24,392 nucleotides of DNA from Candidatus Abyssobacteria bacterium SURF_5 (GTDB taxonomy: Bacteria; Abyssobacteria; SURF-5). The stretch spans positions 1 through 24,392 of the forward strand of contig QZKU01000095.1 of the NCBI GenBank assembly GCA_003598085.1. Reading direction: 5' to 3'. Below are positions 1,805 through 8,307 of this stretch, piece by piece. Position 1 is the first letter of the stretch. The number at the start of each line of letters is the position of its first letter. The notes beneath the pieces were generated by a model. That model was not told the origin of the DNA, searched no databases, and saw nothing but the letters and a program-made list of their open reading frames with translations. A program made the position numbers and the translations under genes.

Positions 1805-2941
1805 TCAGAACGCCAGTTTAGGGGTTTCGGCGCGGCATAATTCGCAGATGTCGTTTTCCGAGTGGATGAAGCCGGCGCCGCATGAATCGCAAGATTTCAT
1901 GGCGGCCCGTAACAGCGTCTGAGGTTTTTGGTCAAACAGTCTTTTCAGGTTGAACGTATTGCTCGAACGGATCGCTTTGAAGCGGCAGGCTTGCTCGCAG
2001 TTTCCGCATGCGGTGCAGAGGTGCGCCTCGAAGGTGATCTCGAACAGATCCTCCTTCATCGAGTTCTTGAGGGCGCCCGTGGGACAGATACAAGAACAGA
2101 GACCGCATCCGGTGCATTCGTGTCCGACAGTTATTTCCGCGGCCGGCAAAATGTCTTGCTGGACTTCAAGCTCGGCGCGGCACTCCAGTCTCGACAAGAT
2201 CGCCAGCAGATTCGTCCTTCTCCAATTATGTTGCCGCACTTGCGCGCGCTGATCCTGCTCGATAGTGCGTCCGGACGCGAGTAACATTCCAGCCAAACCG
2301 GCGGATTTCGATTTGATGCTTGTGAAAAAGGCGCGCCGGGCGAGCCGGTCTGGCGGCGGAACGTGCGCATCCGAAATCTCTTCAGGAGCGCCTGTTTCCG
2401 CCAACGCGATCTTATTCGGCTCGATTCCGATTGCGCGCGCAAGCAATCTTGAAGCGGTGATGATTTTGTCCTGGTGCGAGATTGTGCGAGAGTAGCGGCA
2501 GTTGCCGCAATCCCCCTTCGCAAGCACAATACGTTCGGCTCCAAAAACGAGCGGTGCGACAAGCAGAAACTCGGTGAGCCTTCCCAGACAGTTAAGCTGG
2601 ACAGCGGATCGGCTCGCCCCGGTTGCATTCGAGCACCTGTAGTGGATCGTTTGCAGTTCCCGCTTCTTTATCGAGGGCACGAGCGGGAGCAGGATATCGA
2701 TGTCGCGATTTTGTCGCGGGAGGAAGACGCCGTTGGGACATGAGGAGATACAGGCGCCGCATTCGAGGCATCCGGCGCCGACATGCGGGTATCCATCCTT
2801 GAACACGATCGAGTCAGCCGGACAGGATTCCGTGCAGAGCCGGCAGCCGGATTGCGGATAGGCGACCCGGCTGCACAGCGCCCGCATGACTCTCCTGCTC
2901 TCCCATATCTCGGATGAGAGGATGTTGCGCAAAGCGGTCAC
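1805..2941 (-). CDS. Polyferredoxin with MvhD-like middle domain
   Basis: This 378-residue protein is rich in cysteine. N-terminal clusters are C33-x2-C36-x3-C40-P with C23, and C58-x2-C61-x2-C64-x3-C68-P. C-terminal clusters are C276/279/282/286-P and C309/312/315/319. A final C351-x2-C354 and C366-x2-C369 look like a zinc ribbon or rubredoxin-like knuckle. Residues about 100-172 carry C103, C118 (NCLGRLTEF), C145 and C148 (GDCGNCRY), resembling the MvhD/FrhD delta domain of hydrogenase and heterodisulfide reductase complexes; this is a motif-level inference. No signal peptide is evident, so it is probably cytoplasmic. The GTG start overlaps the torD-like stop by 4 bases. An ATG at 2887 (codon 19) has a better AGGAG ribosome site and may be the real start. 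It is the last gene of the molybdoenzyme block. Confidence 0.85.
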   Translation of the reverse strand: MTALRNILSSEIWESRRVMRALCSRVAYPQSGCRLCTESCPADSIVFKDGYPHVGAGCLECGACISSCPNGVFLPRQNRDIDILLPLVPSIKKRELQTIHYRCSNATGASRSAVQLNCLGRLTEFLLVAPLVFGAERIVLAKGDCGNCRYSRTISHQDKIITASRLLARAIGIEPNKIALAETGAPEEISDAHVPPPDRLARRAFFTSIKSKSAGLAGMLLASGRTIEQDQRAQVRQHNWRRTNLLAILSRLECRAELEVQQDILPAAEITVGHECTGCGLCSCICPTGALKNSMKEDLFEITFEAHLCTACGNCEQACRFKAIRSSNTFNLKRLFDQKPQTLLRAAMKSCDSCGAGFIHSENDICELCRAETPKLAF

Positions 2942-3681
2942 TGCCCGGACCCGTTCAGCGGTTCTTCCTGTCGTAAAATCTCCCGACTGCTTCTGACTCC
3001 AGCGGGAGCGAACCTATCGAAACTATTCTTTTCGATTTCGATAAACTCGCGGGTCATGCAGGCGATTCCGCGGAAGAAGTCGTTCTTCGTTCTTTCCAGG
3101 ATCCTGCCGGTCAGGACCGGGACCCATACCGTCAAGTGTCTTCTGAGGAATTCCTCTTCGAATTCCAAAAATTTCACTGCCTCGTCAAGCTGTTGTGCGC
3201 TCCACGCGTTTCCTTCCTGCTCGCACAGAAAATACATCACCTGCAGCTCGAGCCCGATATGGTCGGGCAAGCTCCTGTAGCTTTTGTCGATTTCGGCGCC
3301 GATCTTTCGAATGGTTTTCTTGACATCGACAGCCGATTCGCCCATGAGGAGGCCTTTCACTTTTTGGCCGGCGATTTCCTTTTCGTCGCGATAGACCGAC
3401 TCGTACGGCGTGACATATTGTCCGAGCGGCGCCACGAGCAGGTGAGTATATTCGATCTCGAGGGGCAGGATATCTCCCGAATACTGCTCCGCGAAATTTC
3501 TGAGGAACGAGACGCATCTTTCACTGAAAATCTCGCGGAGGTCGTCGAGCGAGCTTTTTGCGATCACCCTTTCAACCAGTTCCGGCTTTGGTTTTTCGAG
3601 GAAAACCGCGGCCAGGAACTGATAGATATTCTTGCGCGAGTGCGCCAGTTCTTCATTGAAGCCGGTCTCCCGAGGGTGCAT
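2938..3681 (-). CDS. TorD/DmsD family redox-enzyme maturation chaperone
   Basis: The 247-residue all-alpha protein carries the family signature EYTHLLVAP at residues 77-85 followed by PYESVYRDE at 92-100, corresponding to the E-x-x-x-L-F-x-x-P and P-x-x-S-V-Y motifs of TorD-like chaperones. Such proteins bind the Tat signal of a molybdoenzyme and hold it until the cofactor is inserted. Its position directly after the ferredoxin subunit and the Tat-signal-bearing catalytic subunit makes the latter its obvious client. The ATG is preceded by AAGGAA at a good distance, and the gene overlaps the polyferredoxin by 4 bases, so the two are translationally coupled. It acts in the cytoplasm. Confidence 0.9.
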   Translation of the reverse strand: MHPRETGFNEELAHSRKNIYQFLAAVFLEKPKPELVERVIAKSSLDDLREIFSERCVSFLRNFAEQYSGDILPLEIEYTHLLVAPLGQYVTPYESVYRDEKEIAGQKVKGLLMGESAVDVKKTIRKIGAEIDKSYRSLPDHIGLELQVMYFLCEQEGNAWSAQQLDEAVKFLEFEEEFLRRHLTVWVPVLTGRILERTKNDFFRGIACMTREFIEIEKNSFDRFAPAGVRSSREILRQEEPLNGSGQ

Positions 3682-3701
3682 AAGTCGAGTTCCTTTCGCA
3701 G

Positions 3702-4223
3702 TTAGATGAATCGAATCGACGGATGCGTGAGCTTCGGATTTGCAAAGCGGTCAGGCGCATTCCCGATTCCGTTCGGCACGAAGTCTCTCGTGTACTTGAT
3801 CGCCCTTCCCACGCATGCATCCACACAGGCAGGATTCAAGCCTTCGCCGACCCTGTGAGCGCACAGGGTGCATTTCTCGACTTTGCGCGTATTCGGATTG
3901 TAGCGGGGCGCGCCGTACGGACAGGCCCACACGCAGTAGCGGCATCCCACACAGATGTCCTGGTCGATCAACACGATCCCGTCGCTTGCGCGTTTGGTGA
4001 TCGCGCCGACCGGGCACGACTCGATGCAGGCGGGATCCGCGCAATGGTTGCACGCCATGGTGACGAAGATTTTCTTCGGGTTAGGGTAGACACCGGTTTC
4101 TTCGGTGATAACGGTCCGATAATTTGTCTTCAGCGGTGTGTTATTCTCCGATTTGCAGGCGACCACGCAGGTCTTGCATCCGGTGCACCGTTCCAAGTCG
4201 ATTTCCCATCCGTATTGAGCCAT
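3702..4223 (-). CDS. 4Fe-4S dicluster electron-transfer subunit (DmsB/PsrB/TtrB type)
   Basis: At 173 residues this is a compact member of the family that pairs with molybdopterin catalytic subunits. Sixteen cysteines form four [4Fe-4S] sites: C13/16/19/23, C58/61/66/70, C91/94/97/101 and C118/121/133/137. It has no Tat or Sec signal of its own, so it would be exported as a complex with the catalytic subunit. The ATG has a GGGGG ribosome site 8 bases upstream. The gene sits 18 bases after the catalytic subunit and 20 bases before the torD-like gene, so co-transcription is nearly certain. It should relay electrons between the Mo site and a redox partner, here probably the triheme cytochrome because no NrfD-type quinol subunit is present. 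Confidence 0.93.
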   Translation of the reverse strand: MAQYGWEIDLERCTGCKTCVVACKSENNTPLKTNYRTVITEETGVYPNPKKIFVTMACNHCADPACIESCPVGAITKRASDGIVLIDQDICVGCRYCVWACPYGAPRYNPNTRKVEKCTLCAHRVGEGLNPACVDACVGRAIKYTRDFVPNGIGNAPDRFANPKLTHPSIRFI

Positions 4224-4241
4224 TTCTTGTTCCCCCTTAAC

Positions 4242-7160
4242 CTAGATCTTTTCGATCCTGACTCTTGAGTTGTAGAAGCTTGCGCTCCCGCCGATCTTAT
4301 CTTGCAGTGTCACATTGCCGAGGACCGGGTCCAGGCGCAGGACCTGGTTACCCTGCAGTCCCTTGCCTCGTCCGGCGTCGTAATCCTGAAGCATCCCATC
4401 GATGGTGACGGTCGGCCTTGAGTTGAGCTGCCAGTGGCCGTAGCTTTGAGAGATGGCTGCGACTCCGGGCCGCATTCCCTGCGTCACCTTCGCCTTGCCT
4501 TTGATCCCGACTGAGTTGGAGATGGACGAGACCTTGACCATGTCGCCGGTCTCGATGCCGAGCGACCCGGCATCGGATGCGTTCATTTCGACATAGTTCT
4601 CGGGCATCAGCACCTGAACCAGCCAGGGATTCACGATGGTGCGCGATTGCGTGTGGTTGACCGGCTTGTATGTGACCAGCGCGAAGGGGTACTGGGCAAC
4701 GTCATCGACGAGCTCATTACCCATCACGTCCTTGATCGGCTCATACTTCGGGACACCATCGAAGAATTCGCCGGTCATCGAGTCCTTTGTCGTTGCCAGG
4801 CTCTCGATGAACAGGCGGATGATGCCCTGGTAGCGGTGCGCCATGTACTCGCCGTCGTAAGCGGCTTCGTCTCCTTCAAAAATGCCTCCCTTGGCCAATA
4901 TCTCGTTTGCCGAAACGCCGCTTTCCGCGGAGAAATTGTTCAACAGTTTACGGTACCAGTCCCAGGCGTTGTCGAGTTTGTCTCCGTCGGCAAACGCTCC
5001 GGCGCCGACTCCCGGCAGCCCGAGTCTCTTTGCGACGGCGACAAAGAAGTCCTCGATCAACATCGTATCGCCGACCGCGGGAGTATAGTTCATGTCAGCA
5101 TCAAAGTCGCCGACCACCGGTTGCCTGAATGAACTCACCTTGGTCTGGATCGTGGGGGCAACGTGGGGAGTTCCCCATCTTTCGAGATAGGAGGGATCGG
5201 GCAAGATATAATCGGCCCAACAGGAGGTTTCGTCTGGCTCGAGCGAGAAAGCGATGAAGTGCGGGATCAGGCTTTCGTCGGCCAGAATGGCCTCATAGGT
5301 GGCTCTGGCGGCGGGCGTAGTGTACACCATGTCGTTCCAGTAGGTGAAGAGCACGTCGATCCCATAGGGGTATCGATCGGCGATACTGGGCAGAATCTCC
5401 TGGAAATTGCCGTTCTGCGCGTGCGGGAACCAGGGGCGTCGCGCCGGATAGCCTCCGTCTCTCGCGAAGATTGCGGGTGCATCGGTCTCGTAATTCGCCT
5501 TGACCCGTGTCACCTGGATTCCCGATGCCGTCGCTCCTCCGGGCACGCTGGTGACATCGACCGAACCGGGCGCGCCTTTTCCGTCGGCTTCGTGCCAGTG
5601 GCCTCCGCCGACGGTATTGCCGCCTTTCCAGTTCATGCTTCCGATGAGCGTGTTGAGCGCGAGGATGCAGAGAACGTTATAGGTTCCATTTGTGTGTTTG
5701 CATGGACCCCGATAAGGGTTAGCGACCGCGTTCTTGCCATGGCTGGTGAACTCAATCGCGATGTTCTCGATTACCGACACGGAAATCCCGCAGAGCTCAG
5801 CCCATTGCTGCATCGTCCTCGCGTTTGCCTGTTCCTTGAGGAGCGTGAAGGCGGTCTTGCACGTGTGCCCGTTGACCACGATCGAGTCGCCGGGCGCTTC
5901 GAGCAGACCGCGCCTTGCGGGATTCGACGTATTTGCCGGATCGGGTAGCGCAACAGCCGTTCCGTTTGATTCGTCGAGGATAACGTATTCGCTGCTCGTG
6001 CCTCCGGGCAGTCCTGCTTCGTCCGCCCGCAAATAGGCGGCAGCTCTTCCGCCGACAATCCGGACAAGGAAGGTGGAGTCGGTGAAGGAATATTCTTTTG
6101 GCGACGATTCGAGCGCCGCCGAAATATTGGCATTGCTGAGATATGTGCCGTCATACCGGCCGTTGCCGATCATGTACTGGATCATCGCGAGCGCGAATGC
6201 GGCATCGCCGCCGGGCTTGATGGGAACCCACTGGTCGGCCTTGGCGGCTGTATTCGAGAAGCGCGGGTCGACGACTACCATTTTTCCTCCGCGCTTCTTG
6301 AATTCCATCGTTTTCCGCGACAGCGGATTCATCGGGAATCCGGCTTCCAGTGGATTTGTGCCGATATAGAGGATGTAGCGGCAGTTGATAACGTCGGGTT
6401 TGAAATGATTGTTTTTGCCGTCGGTGGTGAGGCTTCCGGCCACGTGATGGCTGGTTTCGCAGATGCTCGTATGGTCGTGTCTATGGTTGATCGTTCCCAG
6501 TTGGTTTTTGAAGAAGCGATCGGTGAACTCCTTCTGCCCGTGTTCGAGGCGGCCCGGCGAGAAGAGCACCTTGTTGGCGATGGGCCCGAGTTCAGGGGCG
6601 GACGGATCTATGAGAGTTCCGGTGTCCGCATACGGCGAGAGGATCTGGGCGATCTCGTCTATCGCTTGTTCCCACGTAATGCTGACCCATTGCCCTTCGC
6701 CTCGTTTGGTGCCCGGCGCCCGCTTGATCGGGCCGAGCAGCCGGTACGGATTATAGACGGTCTGGACACCGCTTTGCCCTTTGACGCATACGGTACCGAC
6801 TCTGTTTCTGGCCTCATTGACGGGGGTGGCATAGGATAGCCGCTCGCCCGGCTCGAGGCAGTTCGGATGGTAGGGGTTGCCGTCAATCTTAACAAGCACG
6901 CCATCGACCACTTTGGCGCGAATTCCGCATGAGCCGTGGCACATGAGACACACGCTGTACTTGATATCGACGCCGGCGTCAGATTCGAGCGGGTCGGGTG
7001 GAAATTCACCTGCGGTAAGCGCATAAGCCGGGGTCGGCTTTATGAAATTGGTTACGGTGGCAGCGGAGGCCAGGATGCCGCTCACCTTGATGAATTTTCT
7101 TCTGCTGAACTCCGGGTTCAACCAGCTATCCAATGAATTCTTTCTTTTCATCTTGCTCAT
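4242..7160 (-). CDS. Tat-exported molybdopterin oxidoreductase catalytic subunit (TtrA/PsrA/ArrA-like)
   Basis: The 972-residue protein begins with a twin-arginine signal SRRKFIKVSG (residues 19-28) and a hydrophobic stretch ending near PAYA. A [4Fe-4S] site is formed by C71-x2-C74-x3-C78 and C125 (GTVCVKGQ). The SICETSHHVAG segment gives C234 as the probable molybdenum ligand, as in the Cys-ligated group (polysulfide, thiosulfate, tetrathionate and respiratory arsenate reductases). YRGPCKHTNG (483-492) and ALNTLIGSMNWKGGN (501-515) recall TtrA-type enzymes, and the C-terminal molydopterin-binding domain starts near residue 830. The enzyme should reduce or oxidise a sulfur, arsenic or selenium compound in the periplasm, but the substrate cannot be read from the sequence. 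AAGGAGAT lies 8 bases before the ATG. It is flanked by its cytochrome and ferredoxin partners. Confidence 0.93.
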   Translation of the reverse strand: MSKMKRKNSLDSWLNPEFSRRKFIKVSGILASAATVTNFIKPTPAYALTAGEFPPDPLESDAGVDIKYSVCLMCHGSCGIRAKVVDGVLVKIDGNPYHPNCLEPGERLSYATPVNEARNRVGTVCVKGQSGVQTVYNPYRLLGPIKRAPGTKRGEGQWVSITWEQAIDEIAQILSPYADTGTLIDPSAPELGPIANKVLFSPGRLEHGQKEFTDRFFKNQLGTINHRHDHTSICETSHHVAGSLTTDGKNNHFKPDVINCRYILYIGTNPLEAGFPMNPLSRKTMEFKKRGGKMVVVDPRFSNTAAKADQWVPIKPGGDAAFALAMIQYMIGNGRYDGTYLSNANISAALESSPKEYSFTDSTFLVRIVGGRAAAYLRADEAGLPGGTSSEYVILDESNGTAVALPDPANTSNPARRGLLEAPGDSIVVNGHTCKTAFTLLKEQANARTMQQWAELCGISVSVIENIAIEFTSHGKNAVANPYRGPCKHTNGTYNVLCILALNTLIGSMNWKGGNTVGGGHWHEADGKGAPGSVDVTSVPGGATASGIQVTRVKANYETDAPAIFARDGGYPARRPWFPHAQNGNFQEILPSIADRYPYGIDVLFTYWNDMVYTTPAARATYEAILADESLIPHFIAFSLEPDETSCWADYILPDPSYLERWGTPHVAPTIQTKVSSFRQPVVGDFDADMNYTPAVGDTMLIEDFFVAVAKRLGLPGVGAGAFADGDKLDNAWDWYRKLLNNFSAESGVSANEILAKGGIFEGDEAAYDGEYMAHRYQGIIRLFIESLATTKDSMTGEFFDGVPKYEPIKDVMGNELVDDVAQYPFALVTYKPVNHTQSRTIVNPWLVQVLMPENYVEMNASDAGSLGIETGDMVKVSSISNSVGIKGKAKVTQGMRPGVAAISQSYGHWQLNSRPTVTIDGMLQDYDAGRGKGLQGNQVLRLDPVLGNVTLQDKIGGSASFYNSRVRIEKI

Positions 7161-7211
7161 GGAAGGATCTCCTTGATGTTTCTGAAATGGACGCGTAATG
7201 TCGGGCGATTC

Positions 7212-7967
7212 CTATTCCGCATAGAATCCATCTTCGACTCCGCCTGGGCCATGGCATGCGGCGCACAGGTCCGGATTCACCTGGCGCCTCAGCTTGCTTG
7301 CTGAATGCTCGAGCAGGTCGACGGTCCGGTGGCAATGCAGGCATTTTTCATTATTGGTGCTGCCGGGAATCTCCTCGAGCATCTCTTGGTGTATACCGTC
7401 GACATCAGGATCGAGCGAAGTCTCGTACTTCATGCTTCCGTGACATGCGACACACGTGGACATGTACTGCGGAGATTGGCTATTGTGCAACGCAATCAAA
7501 TTCATGCCGGCGAAGGATTCGGGATCCGGCGGACTGGTAACATTATCCCCATCATTCGGCTCGCTACCCTGTTTCCAGAATGACCACACTTCCGCGCTGG
7601 TATGAATCGCGCCTGAGCCGTCAGTCGAGCTGCCGCCCTTCACCCTCCAATAGACTCTTCTTTCCGCGGGAAGCCTGTCCCACTCCGACGCAGCAACCTT
7701 ATATGAGGGTGTGGAGAGAAGCGGCGTCCGCCACAGTATCCGCCCGAAATTCGGGTCAAAGGAATATTCGATTTTGAAGCGGTCGTCGCTTCCGGGCGAC
7801 CATTCGAAAGTGGGTGAGCCCTCCTTATAGGAATAATTCAACGGCTTTAGGAGATGGATCTCCTCTGTCGCGGCGACTGCCGTGCCGGCCACCTTAGCGG
7901 CCCATGCGACTGCCGCCAGGCAAGCCAATAATGGAATTAAGAGAAACTGTGCGGTTGTAACTTTCAT
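7212..7967 (-). CDS. Exported triheme cytochrome c with fibronectin-like N-terminal half
   Basis: Translation from the ATG at 7967 gives 251 residues. This start is chosen over the upstream one at 8078 because it is preceded by GGGGGG and begins a clear signal peptide (MKVTTAQFLLIPLLACLAAVAWA). Residues about 35-132 look like an all-beta, fibronectin type III-like module (F-E-W-S, Y-W-R-V-K-G). Three CxxCH heme sites follow: CVACH at 172-176, CLHCH at 209-213 and CAACH at 235-239. The protein should be periplasmic or membrane-tethered. It is the first gene of the molybdoenzyme block, 51 bases ahead of the catalytic subunit, and is the best candidate electron carrier between the respiratory chain and the enzyme. 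The beta module may dock it to a partner; that is inference. Confidence 0.88.
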   Translation of the reverse strand: MKVTTAQFLLIPLLACLAAVAWAAKVAGTAVAATEEIHLLKPLNYSYKEGSPTFEWSPGSDDRFKIEYSFDPNFGRILWRTPLLSTPSYKVAASEWDRLPAERRVYWRVKGGSSTDGSGAIHTSAEVWSFWKQGSEPNDGDNVTSPPDPESFAGMNLIALHNSQSPQYMSTCVACHGSMKYETSLDPDVDGIHQEMLEEIPGSTNNEKCLHCHRTVDLLEHSASKLRRQVNPDLCAACHGPGGVEDGFYAE

Positions 7968-8280: not shown

Positions 8281-8289
8281 AAAAGAGGG

Positions 8290-8307
8290 CAATTAGCATG
8301 CCAATTG
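8290..8307. promoter_or_regulatory. Near-palindromic candidate operator
   Basis: CAATTAGCATGCCAATTG is an 18-bp palindrome broken by one mismatched pair. It sits just downstream of the predicted minus-strand transcription start (about 8315), a usual place for a repressor site controlling the molybdoenzyme operon. The regulator is unknown. Confidence 0.4.

Follow-up and report, generated by a model that had tools for sequence, protein, structure and literature searches.

The window analysed here is the entire contig QZKU01000095.1 (C95; 24,392 nucleotides) of Candidatus Abyssobacteria bacterium SURF_5, a genome of 5.1 Mb and 98.5% completeness that is labelled G000 below. Five genes on its minus strand, running from 7967 to 1805, encode a triheme cytochrome, a TtrA-like molybdoenzyme subunit, an iron-sulfur (FeS) protein, a TorD-type chaperone and a polyferredoxin, in this order (Table 1). 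In operon order, 51, 18 and 20 bases separate the first four genes, and the last pair overlaps by 4 bases. An earlier note on this DNA had described five same-strand genes at these positions and the lack of an NrfD-type membrane subunit among them. Open reading frames and domain models bear out the former, and a PF03916 search, which found no NrfD gene on the contig, agrees with the latter.

Table 1 Features of the molybdoenzyme operon in the window
Feature	Position	Strand	Basis
Putative sigma-54 (-24/-12) promoter TGGCATGCTAATTGCC	8288..8303	minus	two mismatches to TGGCACGN4TTGCW
Triheme c-type cytochrome, exported, 251 aa	7212..7967	minus	three CXXCH motifs read directly
TtrA-family Mo/W-bisPGD catalytic subunit, 972 aa	4242..7160	minus	Pfam Molybdopterin, Molydop_binding, Molybdop_Fe4S4
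Four-cluster FeS subunit, 173 aa	3702..4223	minus	Fer4_11, DmsB/TtrB/ArrB-type models
TorD/DmsD-type chaperone, 247 aa	2938..3681	minus	PF02613 (Nitrate_red_del), 81 bits; TIGR03482, TorD, DmsD models
Cytoplasmic polyferredoxin, 378 aa	1805..2941	minus	Fer4 + FlpD Pfam matches

The start of the cytochrome is the ATG that precedes its signal sequence; a longer open reading frame beginning with GTG and extending to 8078 is mechanical. The protein carries an export signal and the heme motifs CVACH, CLHCH and CAACH, and it consists of a variable N-terminal part and a conserved C-terminal triheme domain of ~95 residues (domain match 7215-7505). Eight homologues keep the three heme motifs of this domain, one of which is CX4CH in the group of genomes G043 and G060, and in the homologues His, Ser, Tyr, Leu and Asp occur at invariant places of the domain. 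The cytochrome of the sister genome G001 has two additional N-terminal hemes. Pfam holds no model of the triheme domain's own and gave weak MtrC/MtrF-type matches only, and a PDB profile search with the domain returned matches at E 0.016-0.06 (MtrF and other multihemes) and no close solved relative.

Among 386 genomes sampled across Bacteria, a profile of the triheme domain was positive in seven, with one copy each. Since five of these seven genomes also contributed sequences to the profile, the count shows specificity and not an independent discovery rate. In 7/7 genomes the triheme gene lies 11-279 bp upstream of the TtrA-like match; any TtrA-like gene at all occurs in 25 genomes of the sample. 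The hypergeometric estimate for this co-occurrence, 2e-9, exaggerates the significance because it takes the genomes as independent; the perfect adjacency holds without it. Judged by their sequences, the cytochromes are a dedicated family tied to the TtrA-like enzyme, and the triheme domain can be used as a marker to find the module in metagenomes.

The operon recurs well beyond the window. The sister genome of the same family (G001, locus L070, a metagenome-assembled genome (MAG) labelled Candidatus Poribacteria) has the same five genes with a catalytic subunit that is 79% identical, and the third genome of the family (G002) has neither enzyme nor cytochrome. The set of cytochrome, TtrA-like enzyme, FeS protein and TorD without NrfD was also found in G060, G043, G093, G293, G234, G391 and G389, and part of it at loci L073 and L083, where the contigs end. 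Two triheme-bearing genomes found in one phylum add to the seven of the sample, giving nine in all. Phylum-restricted searches place G043/G060, G234/G389/G391 and G093 in three different phyla; G000/G001 and G293 lie outside these, and G293 shares only the domain with G000. The four-gene set is thus present in at least five phyla. The feature is real and recurrent, and more than a local accident of gene order. The recurrence of the five-gene order without NrfD, which the earlier note had raised, holds for several phyla, with a dedicated cytochrome family, but the core comprises four genes, and roughly half of the loci lack the polyferredoxin. The polyferredoxin, which adjoins the operon in G000, G001, G060, G234 and G391, is an optional fifth gene.

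Could the missing membrane subunit be encoded elsewhere? If this were a usual TtrABC-like enzyme whose operon is split, G000 would offer it at least seven NrfD-type genes, all on contigs other than C95 (six by PF03916; a seventh is a QrcD beside a QrcB on contig C15), and in the relative G033 such a gene lies directly upstream. These genes, however, fit other complexes. An orphan NrfD partner was considered and rejected: those that were scanned match models of DsrP, QrcD or HmcC-like proteins, and two remaining genes form an ActC/ActF-type pair. DsrP (473.8 bits vs cut-off 350) adjoins DsrK and DsrJ, QrcD (577 bits vs cut-off 570) adjoins QrcB, and the NrfD that belongs to a second QrcB is 74% identical to the 577-bit QrcD. 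Two genes match HmcC models at 324-327 bits, under the 550-bit cut-off, and the ActC/ActF-type pair, which lies beside a fused QrcB/QrcC-like (ActB-type) protein, was assigned from gene order. Where the genes were scanned none is TtrC-like, the best TtrC score being 32 bits vs cut-off 314. The earlier note had allowed for an NrfD gene elsewhere in the genome that belongs to the complex; what was found there sits with other complexes. Furthermore, none of the seven triheme-bearing loci has an NrfD gene, although each has the cytochrome. All NrfD genes of those genomes lie elsewhere, the nearest about 8 kb off in G043, next to another molybdoenzyme. We therefore regard a split operon as very unlikely.

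The catalytic subunit has the Tat motif SRRKF at about 7092-7106, an N-terminal CxxCxxxC...C cluster motif and the Mo-ligand Cys234 (codon about 6459-6461) within the segment HTSICETSHH. Its best NCBIfam model is TtrA (NF011567), with 420.8 bits vs a cut-off of 1750 and thus below the equivalog threshold. The ArrA model is likewise below threshold (139.8 bits vs cut-off 1600), and the formate dehydrogenase models, with ≤127 bits vs cut-offs ≥666, fit far less well than TtrA. A tree of 46 rows was calculated with IQ-TREE (LG+C20+F+G4 by posterior mean site frequency, 1000 ultrafast bootstraps; supports as bootstrap/SH-aLRT), leaving out SrdA, the Pyrobaculum enzyme and AnrA. Here the window protein falls into an eight-row clade in which every row has a triheme cytochrome (98/97) and which is nested in a 20-row group (88/98). 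The separate clade for which the earlier note had looked is thus recovered, apart from reference TtrA, PhsA and Arx. The reference TtrA proteins (E. coli plasmid, Pseudomonas) and the enzymes of Azospirillum, Citrobacter arsenatis and Halorubrum belong to two other groups of the tree, which are mostly NrfD-linked, and a 43-row group is set apart from Phs/Arx (96/99), with the Arx rows in the outgroup. With its Cys ligand, its N-terminal FeS motif and a sequence nearer to TtrA than to Phs/Arx, the catalytic subunit is assigned to the TtrA/SrdA/alternative arsenate reductase superfamily. A seemingly novel lineage has been reported as sister to this assemblage (PMC10100899), and the gene set described here is a concrete candidate for it. 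A single origin of the cytochrome-bearing enzymes was considered and rejected, as the tree needs two changes for the cytochrome-bearing rows, either two gains or one gain with replacement; the association is therefore either old or acquired twice. The sister group of L083, G043 and G060 consists of Thermodesulfovibrionia-type loci, mostly with an upstream FeS/NrfD pair and downstream polyferredoxin and TorD.

The Mo-ligand position varies among relatives of the enzyme. G033 (L057:215-3767, Nitrospinota), a TtrA-like relative with NrfD directly upstream, has Gly at the otherwise conserved Cys position, and G303 has Ser in the ligand alignment. Three Nitrospirota MAGs (Thermodesulfovibrionia/Nitrospirae; L078:5599, L080:3672, L085:6619) have an in-frame TGA at the same codon of the TtrA-like gene, three residues before the Mo-ligand Cys (NH*SRCAG), where relatives have Cys. 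The codon is a candidate selenocysteine in a TtrA-family enzyme. A stem-loop just 3' of the TGA is alike in all three MAGs; its RNA-folding stability is not significant (z about -0.5).

That TtrA is the best family model and that the host carries sulfur metabolism genes could suggest that it is a genuine tetrathionate reductase drawing on an unusual electron donor. The score of 421 bits vs 1750 and the position outside the reference TtrA clade argue against this, and so does the segment around the ligand Cys (window HTSICETSHHVA, C. arsenatis HTNICELSHHIA in the ligand alignment). HTSICETSHH resembles HTNICELSHH of C. arsenatis and differs from HGxYCGxxYR of tetrathionate reductase; the corresponding segment of ArrA is HSSVCAEAHK (PDB alignment). 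The sensors point in the same direction. A PhnD-type periplasmic binding protein is found at the loci of G043, G060, G293 and G389 together with a histidine kinase and a response regulator, and the response regulator is of the sigma-54 type in G060 and G093, where scanned. In G293 and G389, both in the window's clade, the sensor has a Cys at the AioX/ArxX Cys106 position (PMC5908839), a residue that PhnD and TtrS lack. The sensor of G293 is nearer to ArxX (32%, E 3e-38) than to PhnD (E 9e-10) and has no match to TtrS. PhnD-type sensor with AioX-type Cys, histidine kinase and response regulator are features these two loci share with ArrAB(C)/ArxAB and their AioX/ArxX/ArrX sensing; the window's catalytic subunit, in contrast, lies outside the Arr/Arx clade. 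No TtrSR lies beside the catalytic gene of the window. We consider a true tetrathionate reductase quite unlikely. Active-site and sensor sequences lean towards arsenate-like oxyanions over tetrathionate for the window's clade, but the AioX-type Cys is absent from the sensors of G043 and G060, no sensor adjoins the window operon, and the substrate may differ between clades.

On the conjugative plasmid of C. arsenatis, the TtrA-family gene (L151:7019-11823), 33% identical to the window protein, lies beside arsRDABC. It is accompanied by a DsrO-type FeS gene, the NrfD position is taken by a hypothetical protein, and its product is a candidate for an alternative arsenate reductase.

Sigma-54-type -24/-12 sites, each with ≤2 mismatches to TGGCACGN4TTGCW (window background 0.06 per kb per strand), precede most copies of the operon. 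In the window the distance from the site to the cytochrome ATG is 336 bases; in G001, G043, G060 and G093 it is 376, 324, 109 and 656 bases, respectively. G293 has a weaker upstream site, and so does G389, where it precedes the decaheme gene by 218 bases; the same motif scan found none in G391 or L073.

Compared with TtrABC, the window operon has in common the catalytic homology, the Cys ligand, the N-terminal FeS cluster motif, Tat export and a four-cluster FeS partner. It differs in lacking NrfD/TtrC, in an FeS protein that has no signal peptide and is encoded after the catalytic gene, in the additional triheme cytochrome, TorD and polyferredoxin, in its separate clade and in its ligand segment. 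FeS copies that are 55-63% identical also come after the TtrA-like gene in related loci, and the FeS protein is presumably exported together with the catalytic subunit. The polyferredoxin consists of two 4Fe-4S motifs, an FlpD/MvhD-like segment that contains Cys, an RRxFF motif, two more 4Fe-4S motifs and a C-terminal CxxC...CxxC; its Cys and RR positions are conserved in 7 homologues. The RRxF-type motif inside this cytoplasmic protein (window about 2333-2338; SRRTFLKSAVGQAAA in G030) resembles a mid-protein Tat motif. The polyferredoxin has no export signal, and direct electron transfer from it to the exported enzyme is therefore unlikely. Its best functional analogue is NapF, a cytoplasmic protein with four labile 4Fe-4S clusters that takes part in the maturation of NapA prior to export (PMC10609526). 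Both proteins are cytoplasmic, with four 4Fe-4S clusters and an RR motif (E. coli NapF begins with an SRRG motif), and both are encoded with a Tat-exported molybdoenzyme; the polyferredoxin of the window is longer and has in addition the FlpD/MvhD-like segment and the C-terminal CxxC pair. Since the napF equivalog model (TIGR00402) gave 35.2 bits, below its cut-off of 102.2, the likeness is one of analogy and not of membership.

The export type of each protein, the cofactor motifs, the absence of NrfD and the strict linkage of cytochrome and TtrA-like gene can be read directly from the DNA. We propose, with a probability of roughly 70%, that the operon encodes an extracytoplasmic TtrA-superfamily molybdoenzyme, soluble or lipid-anchored, with a dedicated triheme c-type cytochrome in place of NrfD/TtrC. 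TorD would load and proofread the catalytic subunit, and the cytoplasmic polyferredoxin may, in the manner of NapF with NapA, aid maturation or the insertion of FeS clusters prior to export. The FeS protein would leave the cytoplasm along with the catalytic subunit. Electrons would then run between Mo, the FeS clusters, the triheme cytochrome and the periplasmic cytochrome pool, with the triheme cytochrome as the subunit of entry or exit. The host encodes Dsr, Qrc and NrfH-type links, and its cytochrome pool would be connected to menaquinone by Qrc and NrfH-type enzymes. The enzyme would be a periplasmic oxyanion oxidoreductase, probably acting as a terminal reductase. Oxyanion reduction appears the most likely direction, and as substrate an arsenate-like metalloid oxyanion seems likelier than tetrathionate.

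There is already a precedent for a molybdoenzyme that lacks NrfD and has a c-type cytochrome of its own: FdhABC3, the periplasmic formate dehydrogenase of Desulfovibrio vulgaris. Like the window operon, FdhABC3 combines a Mo/W subunit, an FeS subunit and a dedicated c-type cytochrome without a membrane subunit; its catalytic family differs, and its cytochrome is of the c3 type and not a triheme domain. FdhABC3 delivers electrons to the cytochrome pool and is the nearest working precedent for a cytochrome-linked molybdoenzyme lacking NrfD (PMC10920352). As this precedent is oxidative, an oxidase role is the main rival to a terminal reductase. The same architecture would then pass electrons from a reduced periplasmic substrate through the triheme cytochrome and the cytochrome pool to menaquinone via Qrc. 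The shared composition of Mo, FeS and cytochrome subunits (PMC10920352) would fit, the DsrMKJOP-type and two Qrc-type complexes of the host are known acceptors of periplasmic cytochrome electrons, and AioX-type sensors regulate oxidases as well (PMC5908839). We consider operation in this direction unlikely, though less so than any of the other alternatives discussed here.

Several observations weigh against the proposed cytochrome-linked reductase or narrow it. FdhABC3-like modules in Qrc-bearing sulfate reducers run oxidatively. Binding of the cytochrome to the TtrA-like enzyme is presumed, and AlphaFold modelling of the cytochrome (three sequences) reached a pLDDT of 34.5 with no usable fold. 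NrfD is present in G033, a close outgroup, and in half of the sister clade, so its loss is not universal in the wider lineage. The relatives L071 and L074 have no cytochrome upstream, and the polyferredoxin is not next to the operon in G043, G093, G293 and G389.

Location is a further point on which the members may differ. At the locus of G389 (L238:5507-8692), a DmsE/MtrA-family decaheme cytochrome (189.9 bits vs cut-off 192.2) and a 703-aa protein that matches MtrB/PioB weakly and is possibly an outer-membrane barrel lie directly upstream of the cytochrome-TtrA-FeS-TorD operon. In this it resembles DmsEFAB, the extracellular dimethyl sulfoxide (DMSO) reductase of Shewanella, and the complex might sit at or across the outer membrane, where its triheme cytochrome, in some members a lipoprotein, would dock onto a conduit of porin and cytochrome. 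Lipobox-like LAGC motifs in the cytochromes of G234 and G389 and porin-like genes upstream in L071 and L074 would be consistent with this. The window locus, however, like G001, lacks the decaheme and barrel genes, its catalytic family differs from that of DmsEFAB, and the lipobox of the window cytochrome is at best weak and that of G001 absent. An outer-membrane complex is thus improbable as a general reading, about as much as a true tetrathionate reductase, and a surface location is possible for some members, judging from the decaheme and possible barrel of G389.

The periplasmic enzyme with its triheme cytochrome would be best described as a variant of the complex iron-sulfur molybdoenzyme design, with catalysis of the TtrA superfamily and a triheme cytochrome instead of NrfD. 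A clade that constantly lacks NrfD and has its own cytochrome would mean that coupling to periplasmic cytochrome networks also occurs in this lineage. More tentatively, and with somewhat less than even confidence, we speculate that it represents an undescribed respiratory class. This would comprise TtrA-superfamily oxidoreductases of metalloid or other oxyanions with NrfD swapped for a triheme cytochrome, occurring in at least five mostly uncultured phyla, connected to a periplasmic (in some possibly outer-membrane) cytochrome network and controlled by sigma-54 and an oxyanion sensor.

Contigs C41, C113 and C4 of G000 (L163, L164 and L165) encode another four molybdoenzymes of the Tat type, each about 975-995 aa long and similar to one another. 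One of them is accompanied by FeS and TorD genes, and the group is possibly a separate expanded family.

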